IMG/VR virus record: IMGVR_UViG_3300010354_000525
Span: 1-26,668 of that record
Reading direction: 5' to 3' (one strand)
DNA from: a virus
DNA: 26,668 nucleotides
In this document: in pieces, positions 11,054 through 15,230 of the stretch
Layout: each line of letters begins with the position of its first letter
How positions within the stretch are numbered: position 1 is the first letter of the stretch
Program-made: the position numbers and the translations under genes
The notes under the pieces: generated by a model
Told to the model about the DNA's origin: nothing
What the model saw: the letters and a program-made list of their open reading frames with translations, nothing else
Databases searched by the model: none

Positions 11054-13648
11054 CTATCGTGGTAATTCTTTCTGCGCCATCTGTACTGTGCCTAACAATG
11101 TTTTGCGATTTTCAGCAAACAACTGTGCTACACTCTTACTGTCTAACGCACTTATTTGGTTAGTAATATAATTGTTAGTTATATTTTGTGGTGCTTGTAA
11201 CTGATTGTTAGCAGGTTTGTAATTCTGCGGCACAAAAAGTTCAGCACCTTTCTCACCAACTAAACTTGGCTTACCTACTGGTGGCATACCACCTTGAGCA
11301 AAGCCTTGTATCTTTAGTTTATTTAGTTCTTTTATGTTCTCTAAAACATCGTTTGGTATGATCGTACCTTTTACTTTAGGTACAAAGAGTTCGGGTCCTT
11401 TTTCACCAACAAGGCTAGGCTTATTGACAGGAGGTTCGCCACCTTCAGCAAATCCAAATATCTTGCTGAAGAAGCCCATGATGCCACTGCCACCGCTAGT
11501 CATTGGATTGAATATGCTTGCTATCATTTGCTGTATCTTGCTCTGTACAATTTGAGCAATGATATTGTTGATCAAATCTTTGAATGATAGTTTGCCTGTT
11601 TTAGCAAAGTTTACAAATACATCTGTTAGACCTTTTGTAAATGTATCAAATGCCATCTTACCTTGTTCAGCAACAGTAGGTATAGTGTTTACAAAGTCAC
11701 GGTATGCTGTTTTCCAACCTTCTAACCAAGTTGTAGGTGTGTTAGCATTAGCAAGTTTTTCTTCGCCATCATATTGTGCTTGTAATGTTTGTAATCTTGC
11801 TGCCGTTAGTTTTTGTAACTGATCTAACTCACGCTTGAAGTTTTCATCACCAAGTTGTGCTTGCTTTTGTTGTAGTTCTAATAGTTTGACTTCAAAATCA
11901 TATTGTACTTGGCGTACTTGTCTTTGATGCTCAATTGCTCTTGTGGCATCATCAAGTGCTTGTTTAGACAAGCCGATCAACGATAGATTTTCTGTTAGTT
12001 GCTGTCCTGCTTCGTCAAACTTGAATTTTTCAGCAAGCATTTCTACAGCATGTGCTTGCTTATCTGCTTCGTCTCTTTGTTTTTGCTGTAAGAGTACATT
12101 TTCTTCAGCGGCTTTCTTCAAGCCAGCATTACCAGCAAGTATGCGATTGATTGCTAATTCTATTTCTTTATATTTTTGCGGACCTAATACATCTAGCCAC
12201 TGACCAGTGCTAGTTTTTAGTTCGTTTTGTTGTTGTCGTAGATTTTCAACAGCCTTGATACTATTTTGTATTGCGTCACGCTTTGCGACTTCAACTTCTT
12301 TTTGATCATCGCTCAAATTTAGAATATCTTTATTGAATTGTATCTGATTTAGATATTCTTTGTTTTGTTTTCTTACATCGGCAACAACACTAGCAAGATT
12401 CTTTTTGTAATCTTCCATTATTTGAAGATTTTCTAAAGCAATTTTTGCTTTTTCTTTTTCTTTATCTGCTTGCTTTTTTGCTTCTTCTGCGGCTTTTTTA
12501 GTTGCGTCTGCTTCGTCACGCTTTGCTTGACTTGTGATGCCTAGAAAATCAGTAACGGCTTGTGCCGCTTTCTTCACATAGTTTATAAATTCGTCTATAA
12601 GATCAATATCAAACGCAAATTTGATTGCTTCGTTTAGAGCATAGAACGCCGCTGATACAGCGGCAATAAGAGGTATAAATCTAGCGAATCCTGCTAGGAA
12701 ATAGAATAATGTTTTTAGTTGGAAGCCTATGTGTCTGATTACTTCCCAAACTTTACCAAGTATTGATGTCGCTGATGCCCATGCTCTTTGGAAGCCTTTT
12801 ATTCTTGTCTCGCCAGCACCAACAGTATCGCCTAAAACTTTGACACCTTGTTTTGCTAACGCAAGATAACCTAATATACCTGCGACAGCACTACCGATAC
12901 CACTGAATACTTTGAACGCAACTGCTAAACTACCAATAGATTTTGCTAGTTCAATAAAACTTTCAATCAACTGATCAATTTTTTCTTGTGGTAAGGCAGC
13001 GATTTTTTCTGCTAATGGTTCTAATGCTTTTAGTATGCTAAATTGTAACTTGACAAAACTTTGATCAAGTTTATCTTGTAATCTTGCTACTGCTTGTTGC
13101 GCGGCTACATAATTTTGTGCTTCTCTTACAGCACTCTTGTAACTTTCGCTAACATTATCAAGGCTAGTAGTATCTAATGTCTTACTAAAGATATCTCTTT
13201 TGACAGTTTGTGCTAATTGAGCATTCTTTTTCTCAAGTTCACCTAATCTTTCAATAACTTTGTCAAATATTTGTGTAGTATCGCTATTGATTATTTCTTC
13301 AGTAGTAAATCCTAACTGTCTAAACGCATCATTGGCGGCTTTGCTACCATTATACAATTCACCTAGTGTATTGCTAAATCTAGTTGCTGCCTGTAATGCG
13401 CTGTCAAATGTACCACCATTTGCCGCGACTGTATTTGCGAATCCTATAAGTTCAGCATTTGCGATTCCAGTAACTTTTGCTACATCTTCTATGCTGTCAG
13501 CAAAATTCATTACATTACGGATCAAAGCACCTATAGCAAGACCTGCTAATGCTGATTTTAGACCGCCTAACGATTTGTTTAGCGCATCAACATTTTTCTG
13601 CGCTTGCTGTGTTAGTACCTCAATCGTAAGTGTTTCTTTTGCTGCCAT
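11054..13648 (-). CDS. Tail tape measure protein
   Basis: An 864-residue protein. The N-terminus (LTIEVLTQQAQKNVDALNKS, then a Gly/Ala hydrophobic helix) is typical of tape measures. Helical and coiled regions lie at about 120-225 and 370-590 (rich in Glu, Lys, Gln), and hydrophobic segments at about 237-270 and 305-350 could enter the membrane. The C-terminus contains two copies of a 25-residue motif with KPSLVGEKG-x-ELFVP, a well-known tape measure feature. By the usual 0.15 nm per residue it predicts a tail of about 130 nm. It follows the chaperone genes, as expected. The start at 13648 lies 4 nt after the upstream stop with GGG in front. Confidence 0.95.
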   Translation of the reverse strand: MAAKETLTIEVLTQQAQKNVDALNKSLGGLKSALAGLAIGALIRNVMNFADSIEDVAKVTGIANAELIGFANTVAANGGTFDSALQAATRFSNTLGELYNGSKAANDAFRQLGFTTEEIINSDTTQIFDKVIERLGELEKKNAQLAQTVKRDIFSKTLDTTSLDNVSESYKSAVREAQNYVAAQQAVARLQDKLDQSFVKLQFSILKALEPLAEKIAALPQEKIDQLIESFIELAKSIGSLAVAFKVFSGIGSAVAGILGYLALAKQGVKVLGDTVGAGETRIKGFQRAWASATSILGKVWEVIRHIGFQLKTLFYFLAGFARFIPLIAAVSAAFYALNEAIKFAFDIDLIDEFINYVKKAAQAVTDFLGITSQAKRDEADATKKAAEEAKKQADKEKEKAKIALENLQIMEDYKKNLASVVADVRKQNKEYLNQIQFNKDILNLSDDQKEVEVAKRDAIQNSIKAVENLRQQQNELKTSTGQWLDVLGPQKYKEIELAINRILAGNAGLKKAAEENVLLQQKQRDEADKQAHAVEMLAEKFKFDEAGQQLTENLSLIGLSKQALDDATRAIEHQRQVRQVQYDFEVKLLELQQKQAQLGDENFKRELDQLQKLTAARLQTLQAQYDGEEKLANANTPTTWLEGWKTAYRDFVNTIPTVAEQGKMAFDTFTKGLTDVFVNFAKTGKLSFKDLINNIIAQIVQSKIQQMIASIFNPMTSGGSGIMGFFSKIFGFAEGGEPPVNKPSLVGEKGPELFVPKVKGTIIPNDVLENIKELNKLKIQGFAQGGMPPVGKPSLVGEKGAELFVPQNYKPANNQLQAPQNITNNYITNQISALDSKSVAQLFAENRKTLLGTVQMAQKELPR
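11228..11302 (-). repeat. Tape measure 25-residue motif, copy 2
   Basis: Encodes FAQGGMPPVGKPSLVGEKG then AELFVP. It matches copy 1 (11378-11452) at 20 of 25 residues, but many third codon positions differ, so the duplication is old. Confidence 0.85.
11378..11452 (-). repeat. Tape measure 25-residue motif, copy 1
   Basis: Encodes FAEGGEPPVNKPSLVGEKG then PELFVP, the first of two copies at the C-terminal end of the tape measure protein. Confidence 0.85.
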
Positions 13649-13652
13649 GATA

Positions 13653-13943
13653 TTAGCCCTTTGCTATTTGTTCAAGTCGCTTTGCTATGAACTCTTGTGT
13701 TGGTTTAGTCATGCCATCAGGGCTTTGTTTTGACCAGCCCTCATCTAATCTAACAGCGTATGGATAGTTGGCAACGATACTTTCGCCTTTTCGTACTGTC
13801 TTGCGTCTTGCGTTGCCACTACGAATAGGCGTGTTTTCTACAACGACTTTATGTGCTTCTTTAGGTAAGTTAGCAATATCACGCTTCATCTTATCCAGAC
13901 GGCGATTGATATTATTAGTTGTCTTTACTTTGACTTGTATCAT
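13653..13943 (-). CDS. HK97 gp10-like head-tail/tail completion protein
   Basis: A 96-residue protein. The order 'helix with basic residues (RRLDKMKRDIANLPKEAHKVV), then ENTPIRSGNARRKT, then IVANYPYAVRLDEGWSKQSP' matches the HK97 gp10 family, in which a T-P-x-x-x-G-x-L/A-R motif is followed by Y-A-x-x-x-E-x-G. Family members connect head and tail or complete the tail tube. The gene overlaps the chaperone frame by ATGA, so it is coupled to it. Its place between chaperone and tape measure, rather than among the head-tail connectors, is unusual. Confidence 0.75.
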   Translation of the reverse strand: MIQVKVKTTNNINRRLDKMKRDIANLPKEAHKVVVENTPIRSGNARRKTVRKGESIVANYPYAVRLDEGWSKQSPDGMTKPTQEFIAKRLEQIAKG

Positions 13944-14194
13944 TTTTTATTCTTCTTGTAAATCTCTAATAATTGCTCTTGCGTTATATTTGGTATAAAC
14001 TGACCAGGCTTGCTATTCGCTTTTTTGTTCTGATAAGTTTCCCAACTCATAACTGCGTCCATCACATATAAATCAAAAGTATCTGCTCTCTGTAAAATTT
14101 CGCTAGGCAAAAGACCATATCTCTTACCTAGCCCATCAATCTGTAATAATGATAACATCTTTGGACTATCCACCTCGATGTTATCATTTGTTAT
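13940..14194 (-). CDS. Tail assembly chaperone, frameshift-only part (gpT-like)
   Basis: This frame is open from the slippery site at 14200-14194 to the TGA at 13942-13940 and lies exactly in the -1 frame of the preceding gene. After slippage it adds 84 residues to the 98 of the upstream protein (182 in total), like lambda gpGT. The added part, with IDGLGKRYGLLPSEILQRADTFDLYVMDAVMSWE, is compact and helical; this L-P-S-E-[IL]-[LI]-x-R pattern is common in small phage proteins encoded before tape measures. A GTG at 14173 is an alternative independent start, but it has no good ribosome site. The stop overlaps the next gene's ATG. It is a chaperone for tape measure and tail tube assembly, and is probably not in the mature virion. 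Confidence 0.75.
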   Translation of the reverse strand: MTNDNIEVDSPKMLSLLQIDGLGKRYGLLPSEILQRADTFDLYVMDAVMSWETYQNKKANSKPGQFIPNITQEQLLEIYKKNKK

Positions 14195-14200
14195 TTTCCC
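14148..14200 (-). promoter_or_regulatory. Programmed -1 ribosomal frameshift signal
   Basis: The minus strand has the slippery heptamer G-GGA-AAA in the zero frame (14200-14194) directly before the TAA stop, a 5-nt spacer TAACA, then a perfect 12-bp stem: AATGATAACATC (14188-14177) pairing with GATGTTATCATT (14159-14148) around a 17-nt loop. Slippery site, 5-nt spacer and stem is the standard -1 frameshift layout; lambda uses GGGAAAG at the same place in gpG-gpT. Confidence 0.8.
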
Positions 14201-14487
14201 AACAGTTCAGTCACCTTCGTAACAGCCTTCATCATAATAGGCATAGGTAATACATTTTTCTTTGTGATGATTTCCTTGCCTTGTTCATCTAGCAATAGAT
14301 GTTTGACAACATCAACAATGTTTGCTGTGTTGTTTGTATCTGTGTTTGCTAGTTTCATAAACACATCCATTGGCTGACGATCATAAGTCCAAAAGGTTAC
14401 TGGCTCACCATATTGTTTTATGGTGTCCTCGTCATCAAGTTTGAGTTCTATTAGTAGGGGTTCTGCTGAAAGTTGTGATAATTTCAT
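14191..14487 (-). CDS. Tail assembly chaperone (gpG-like)
   Basis: A 98-residue protein from the ATG at 14487 (MKLSQLSAEPLLIELKLDDE), chosen because AGGAG stands 7 nt before it; an upstream in-frame codon at 14514 lacks this. The sequence PVTFWTYDRQPMDVFMKLAN and VVKHLLLDEQGKEIITKKNVLPMPIMMK look like the small acidic-helical chaperones found before tape measure genes. It ends in LLGK* at the slippery site GGGAAAA, so part of the ribosomes should shift to make the longer fusion. The main product and the fusion together would load the tape measure and recruit tail tube protein, as gpG and gpGT do in lambda. Confidence 0.8.
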   Translation of the reverse strand: MKLSQLSAEPLLIELKLDDEDTIKQYGEPVTFWTYDRQPMDVFMKLANTDTNNTANIVDVVKHLLLDEQGKEIITKKNVLPMPIMMKAVTKVTELLGK

Positions 14488-14503: not shown

Positions 14504-14695
14504 TTAGTTACCACTATATTTAGTATATCTCTCTTCCAATAATTGGTTGAGAAGTGCTAAACGAAATGTTTGTTTTGATCTCATTTGACGAATTGTTTGT
14601 TCCATGTTGTTTAGCATTGGAAGAAGTTTTGCTTCGTCAGCAATTAGGCTGCGTAACTTCTCTTCGTCTGTTTTTAGCCATGTATTGTCACTCAT
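14504..14695 (-). CDS. Small helical protein between tail tube and chaperone
   Basis: A 63-residue protein from the ATG at 14695 (MSDNTWLKTDEEKLRSLIAD), preceded by GAGG 5 nt upstream; it is rich in Leu, Glu, Lys, Gln with heptad-like spacing (LIADEAKLLPMLNNMEQTI), so it probably forms a coiled coil. The gene is separated from the major tail gene by a hairpin terminator and lies 16 nt before the chaperone start. No family recognised; a role in tail assembly is suggested only by position. Confidence 0.6.
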   Translation of the reverse strand: MSDNTWLKTDEEKLRSLIADEAKLLPMLNNMEQTIRQMRSKQTFRLALLNQLLEERYTKYSGN

Positions 14696-14756: not shown

Positions 14757-15230
14757 TTATACTGTACCTGTTGTCATGCTACCTGTTACAGCGATTGTAA
14801 GAGGGCTCACCCAAATTGGTGAATCCGGACTTACAGTCGGAGCAACGCTAGATAGATAACCAGTTCCTGAATAGTATGACGCACCATTTGCTGATGAGTT
14901 ACCATTCATTACTAGTTTCCAACTTACTTTGACTTTATTGTTTGACAAGCCAGAAATACCACGCTGTGTAGCATTTCCAGTACCACCTGTACCGAACCAT
15001 ACATCATCATCTAACACTATGTTAGTTGATAATTCATTGTCGGCTGGAGTTGTAATCTTGTTCATATCTGTTGAACAGAAATCTACCCAAGAAAAAATTC
15101 CAGTGCTATTGGTGATAGTAATATCTTGTAAGCAAGTAACATCCAAAGGTGCGTTTGCTACATTTCCTGTATCAGTACTGACATACAAGTGAGGTTGTGT
15201 ACCTGTTGTATTTACTGTTATAGTTGCCAT
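14757..15230 (-). CDS. Major tail (tube) protein
   Basis: A 157-residue protein that is Thr, Ser, Gly, Asn-rich and predicted beta, matching tail tube proteins in size and character. The start has a very strong ribosome site (AAGGAGG, 7 nt before the ATG), and a strong hairpin terminator follows the stop, both fitting a highly expressed gene. It comes after the head-tail joining genes and before the chaperone pair, the standard place for the tail tube. The segment DDDVWFGTGGTGNATQRG (74-91) is probably a loop between strands. No sheath gene is present next to it, which supports a non-contractile tail. Confidence 0.8.
   Translation of the reverse strand: MATITVNTTGTQPHLYVSTDTGNVANAPLDVTCLQDITITNSTGIFSWVDFCSTDMNKITTPADNELSTNIVLDDDVWFGTGGTGNATQRGISGLSNNKVKVSWKLVMNGNSSANGASYYSGTGYLSSVAPTVSPDSPIWVSPLTIAVTGSMTTGTV

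Follow-up and report, generated by a model that had tools for sequence, protein, structure and literature searches.

A programmed −1 ribosomal frameshift very probably joins a G-like tail assembly chaperone of 98 aa to a T-like extension of 84 aa in an uncultivated phage. The 98-aa protein would be the main product and a 182-aa fusion the minor one. We analysed a single window, a linear IMG/VR virus record of 26,668 bases taken at its whole length, in which every feature described below lies on the minus strand. Comparison with relatives shows that a slippery heptamer, the stop codon abutting it, a Shine-Dalgarno-like (SD-like) element upstream, and a hairpin downstream are each, in most of the family, more conserved than the proteins require. 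A sequence-only reading of the window had proposed a tail-chaperone −1 frameshift signal at this site, an interpretation that the relatives support. As judged from these comparisons, the locus is best filed as a tail-chaperone −1 frameshift of the lambda G/GT type, with a three-part signal like those of dnaX and IS911.

Gene order, relatives, and protein identity

The two ORFs are placed between the tail tube gene, recognised by position only, and the tape measure gene, with the second ORF in the −1 frame. The gene order recurs across relatives: the probable tail tube (major tail protein) gene (14757–15230 in the window, present in 98 relatives), a small ORF preceding the chaperone gene (14504–14695, in 107), the chaperone pair, a neck/tail-completion-like gene (13653–13943, phrog_169, in 112), and the tape measure gene (11054–13648, PF09718 and phrog_24, in 77). 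Family searches with the tail tube candidate gave no match. Neck and tail-completion genes usually come before the tail tube gene; the phrog_169 gene instead follows the chaperone pair and precedes the tape measure gene in those 112 relatives.

The upstream ORF (14487–14191) starts at an ATG with an AGGAG ribosome site and codes for 98 aa. It gave no Pfam match and no significant PHROG match, and its assignment as a G-like chaperone draws on synteny, a structural model, and a fold match. The model is confident (pLDDT 92.8); its top PDB match is the HK97 tail assembly chaperone 2ob9, a weak one (E 0.11), and it also matches a BFVD entry named “Tail assembly chaperone” (E 6e-8). Pfam scans of both ORFs returned nothing usable, and PHROG scans of the −1 domain found the uncharacterised phrog_6541 only, in seven of 12 relatives. 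The model of this domain is poor (pTM 0.40), and a fold search with it returned no named fold. A tail assembly chaperone pair is the likely annotation of the two-ORF locus.

IMG/VR holds at least 568 stretches related to the first ORF and at least 429 related to the second. We kept 80 per search, and with duplicates removed and the window included, the set comprised 114 distinct junctions. One relative (L091), the sole one from a genome collection, was found in the MAG of an uncultured beta-proteobacterium (Erken-D11 bin). The phage-record search gave a distant match only for the tape measure, to Methylophilaceae phage P19250A. Together these two findings hint at a beta-proteobacterial host. 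The fusion protein had no match among 50,697 phage records, nor did the DNA in the phage-record search, and an Rfam search gave no hit.

The slip site and the elements flanking it

The upstream ORF ends in CTG TTG GGA AAA TAA. Its heptamer GGGAAAA (14200–14194) reads G GGA AAA in the zero frame and stands directly before the TAA stop (14193–14191), so that the coordinates bear out the sequence-only reading on this point. Among the 114 junctions, the heptamer is GGGAAAG in 87, GGGAAAA in 26, and GGGGAAG in one; an X_XXY_YYZ heptamer of the form GGGAAAR thus lies in the zero frame at the end of the first ORF in 113 of 114, and every one of the 114 continues with TAA. Four additional loci, overlooked by the motif search, likewise read GGGAAAG followed by TAA. 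Relatives that keep the second frame without a slippery site, which had been named beforehand as evidence against a frameshift, were found neither among the 114 junctions nor among these four loci. The single deviant heptamer (L242, G_GGG_AAG) should slip poorly by the usual rules; its TAA still abuts, and the downstream fold is moderate.

Codon choice at the site is far from that elsewhere. The glycine codon at the slip site is GGA in 113 of 114 sequences versus 37 of 393 in the rest of the same ORFs, and the leucine before it has a G-ending codon in 114 of 114 versus 233 of 1227, which indicates that selection acts on the DNA. Without exception the −1 frame opens with GTA or ATA, codons used only about 40% of the time for Val and Ile elsewhere in that frame, so the stop beside the heptamer is held beyond the need of the fusion protein. 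In the sequence-only reading, the abutting stop may also promote slippage through termination delay. GGGAAAG is among the best slip motifs in E. coli (PMC4066793); according to the same paper, earlier studies reported GGGAAAA to be inefficient there. The window carries GGGAAAA, which counts against the frameshift reading given those reports.

Upstream of the heptamer we found an element absent from the sequence-only reading's list of signal elements. AAGGTGA (14217–14211) is a match to the anti-Shine-Dalgarno sequence of the 16S rRNA 3′ end, with 10 nt between it and the heptamer. SD-like elements normally lie 10–14 nt upstream of the heptamer, and the spacing in dnaX is about 10 nt. Family-wide, the predicted duplex between mRNA and anti-SD at the element averages −6.0 kcal/mol where synonymous shuffles average −1.9 kcal/mol, and no other place in the 84 nt scanned deviates as much. 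In addition, the lysine codon within the element is AAG in 101 of 114 sequences versus 181 of 884 in the rest of the ORF. The match is weak or absent in some relatives; by these comparisons, selection on the element goes further than the protein requires in most family members, probably because it acts as a 5′ stimulator. The sequence-only reading had called the signal complete, a description fairer than could be known from its own list because an SD-like stimulator is also present.

Downstream, the spacer TAACA (5 nt) separates the heptamer from a hairpin at 14188–14148, a putative 3′ stimulator. Its 5′ arm (14188–14177, AATGATAACATC) and 3′ arm (14159–14148, GATGTTATCATT) form a perfect 12-bp complement around a loop of 17 nt, all at the coordinates first proposed; a GTG that had been placed in the stem region (14173–14171) in fact lies in the loop. 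RNAfold gave −17.9 kcal/mol for the 54 nt from the stop, compared with −5.9 ± 2.1 for dinucleotide shuffles (z −5.6, 0/200). Against shuffles preserving the −1-frame protein, the window's first 60 nt past the heptamer gave p = 0.005, and across the 114 sequences, the same 60 nt had a mean z of −2.3 versus synonymous shuffles, with 77 below −2. The hairpin site is the strongest fold signal along both ORFs. A lesser fold peak occurs in the upstream ORF at codons −80 to −60 (14374–14434; mean z −1.55 versus synonymous shuffles, 46% below −2), where TGACGA (14434–14429) could pair with TCGTCA (14380–14375); an alignment fold of this region found no structure.

We examined covariation in two groups of relatives. 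The clade of the window, recognised by its peptide KM[LV]S, comprises 30 distinct sequences; 85.8% of the stem pairs are kept in it, and there are 26 compensatory cells versus 9.4 in shuffles and at most seven in slid controls. Changes on both sides occur at pairs 14186/14150, 14183/14153, and 14181/14155. Pair 14187/14149 is missing in 26 of the 30; the outermost A-U pairs are thus partly specific to the window, and the conserved stem has about ten pairs and begins 7 nt past the heptamer. Another large clade pairs in a register that lies further downstream, beginning 10 nt past the heptamer (columns 11–20 with 41–50), with 92.8% paired among 29 sequences chosen with that register in view, which favours this percentage, and 18 compensatory cells versus 6.7. 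When the signal region was left out of tree building, the variable stem pairs changed state five to 13 times on the tree. Compensatory changes thus exceed those in shuffles in both registers, the covariation that had been suggested as a check on the stem. In L087 and L088, a compact 10-bp hairpin (GTGATGCGAT...GTCGCATCAC) within the first 30 nt past the heptamer replaces the family stem at a similar or, in L087, closer distance.

The hairpin signal is absent in about 20 of the 114 relatives, and in most of these a good SD match is missing too; the family as a whole can therefore do without the stimulators. Since fold and covariation are found in most members and several relatives do without the stem, the comparisons indicate that it is real and selected in most of the family, neither invariant nor indispensable; the view that it is required is not supported. 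The SD match and the hairpin tend to be missing from the same sequences. An independent-pairs test on the tree was uninformative as to their correlated evolution, and because the tree holds few independent events, we claim no correlation between them. Members with GGGAAAA have stronger mean folds (−15.2 versus −10.2 kcal/mol), a difference that stays a lead because only about three supported independent contrasts underlie it on the tree. The window's weaker heptamer together with one of the strongest hairpins would fit compensation.

Alternative routes to the second frame

From 14194, the −1 frame is open to a stop at 13940, adding 84 aa (ITNDNIEVD...), and the claim that a second frame is open in the −1 register from the slip was confirmed over its 84 codons. 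It begins ATA ACA AAT GAT AAC ATC GAG GTG GAT, the first base being shared with the slip. Its first ATG is usually codon 13 (106 of 114). Codons 2–12, which precede this usual first ATG, vary mainly at third positions, with 13,877 synonymous versus 8,752 nonsynonymous single-base differences in pairwise comparisons, which neither of the other two frames shows. By this measure, constraint at the protein level extends through the −1 frame as far as the stop, ahead of the first ATG. This bears on translational coupling, in which the −1 ORF would be a separate protein started at ATG 14158 (or GTG 14173), with the hairpin hiding the start until opened by ribosomes terminating at TAA 14193 and AAGGTGA helping to retain the 30S. 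We considered coupling because the window's loop contains GAGGTGG; the 3′ arm contains the ATG, the frequency of the codon-13 ATG agrees with such a start, and a role in helping restarts has been proposed for terminal SD sequences (PMC5009743). However, just two of 114 sequences have an SD 4-mer suitably spaced before an ATG of the −1 frame, compared with 85 of 85 for the ATG of the upstream gene, so that a ribosome site of the second frame's own, also named beforehand as evidence against a frameshift, is nearly absent; in the window, the SD-like GAGG of the loop lies 14 nt from the −1-frame ATG. Moreover, a start at this ATG cannot explain constraint on the 12 codons before it, the ATG itself is missing in several relatives (KEL replaces KM), and the Gly GGA and Leu-G choices before the stop would have no role. 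We rejected coupling on the rarity of the SD 4-mer and the constraint upstream of the ATG, and regard it as highly unlikely. The same two observations indicate that the second frame is translated only as an extension, without an independent start.

Even with a genuine frameshift, the hairpin could simply reflect the protein sequence or conserved codons nearby, leaving the heptamer, perhaps with the SD-like element, as all that matters. Some relatives (L025, L053, L065, L078, L080, and L224) do lack a hairpin while retaining both ORFs and the heptamer, and to our knowledge the GGGAAAG site of lambda has no textbook stimulator. This explanation nevertheless seems very unlikely, as synonymous shuffles that preserve the protein fold more weakly, the partners of pairs 11/41 and 13/39 in alignment A3 vary jointly (nine and five state changes on the tree), and other regions of both ORFs show weaker signal or none. 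Production of the fusion by stop readthrough or transcript slippage rather than by ribosomal frameshifting has nothing specific in its favour beyond the fact that just a stop separates the two parts. Readthrough of TAA stays in frame 0 and so never enters the conserved frame. As for transcript slippage, the A run of GGGAAAA is short, 87 of the 114 heptamers have only three A's, and the X_XXY_YYZ phasing is exact in all GGGAAAR members. The chance that either process makes the fusion is extremely small.

Proposed mechanism and relation to known systems

Under the proposed −1 frameshift, most ribosomes would terminate at TAA and give the 98-aa product. While a ribosome stands at GGA-AAA, the AAGGTGA about 10 nt behind the heptamer would pair with the 16S 3′ end, and the hairpin 5 nt ahead would resist translocation. 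In a small fraction of cases, the Gly and Lys tRNAs would re-pair one base back, from GGA-AAA to GGG and AAA, AUA would be decoded next, and the UAA would be bypassed. The resulting 182-aa fusion may act like lambda gpGT and connect the tail tube protein with the tape measure protein. The sequences show the four elements and how they are conserved; the slippage, its frequency, the stimulation by each element, and the protein functions are what we infer.

The closest known system is lambda gpG/gpGT (G_GGA_AAG) and its homologues in long-tailed dsDNA phages, which occupies the same slot between tail tube and tape measure (PMC5009743). It shares the kind of heptamer (GGGAAAG in most relatives here) and the output of a short product with a minor −1 fusion, the latter predicted here; lambda makes G and GT at about 30:1 (PMC5009743). 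Unlike the lambda type, the stop here abuts the heptamer in every member, with an SD-like element on one side of the site and a covarying hairpin on the other. The distance from slip to stop, 0 here, averages 26 nt in the SEA-PHAGES set and 36 nt in the Xu set, the two phage sets of PRFect (PMC10885494). The signal resembles the −1 signals of E. coli dnaX and of IS911/IS3-type elements, which likewise combine an SD-like element, a heptamer, and a stem-loop (PMC4066793, PMC5009743). In particular, SD-like stimulators upstream of the slip motif have been described for dnaX and IS911, and stem-loops normally lie 5–8 nt downstream of the heptamer (PMC4066793); the stem-loop falls at such a distance in the window and its clade, and the SD-like element has its 10-nt spacing. 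In the dnaX of some bacteria, a zero-frame stop directly follows the shift site (PMC5009743). The genes differ from those of dnaX and IS911, however, as does the heptamer, GGGAAAR here and AAAAAAG there, and unlike in E. coli dnaX, the shifted ribosomes here are predicted to make the longer product. Phage SPP1 also has frameshifts in tail genes, at gp17.5/gp17.5* (−1, UUUUUUC) and gp17.1/gp17.1* (+1 at CCCUAA), the latter with a shift site that takes in the stop codon (PMC6316719); heptamer or direction differs from the present case, and so do the proteins.

We put forward only as a doubtful conjecture that the abutting TAA is itself part of the signal. Slippage with GGA-AAR in the E and P sites and UAA in the A site would then compete with release factors, release-factor supply or growth state would set the G:GT ratio, and lineages would tune efficiency by balancing the heptamer (AAG or AAA) against how strong the SD and the hairpin are.

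Frameshifting in tail chaperones has long been known. What is distinctive here is the combination of an SD-like element, a heptamer, an invariant abutting stop, and a covarying hairpin in one uncultivated phage family. A two-ORF chaperone without a Pfam match, and for its first ORF without a PHROGs match, gains a likely annotation. The family also provides a comparative series in which a near-invariant core of slip site and stop is found in lineages with both stimulators, with another hairpin register, or with neither. With it one can ask how a fixed protein ratio is tuned in phages, and whether slippage is stimulated by the very presence of a stop at the next codon.
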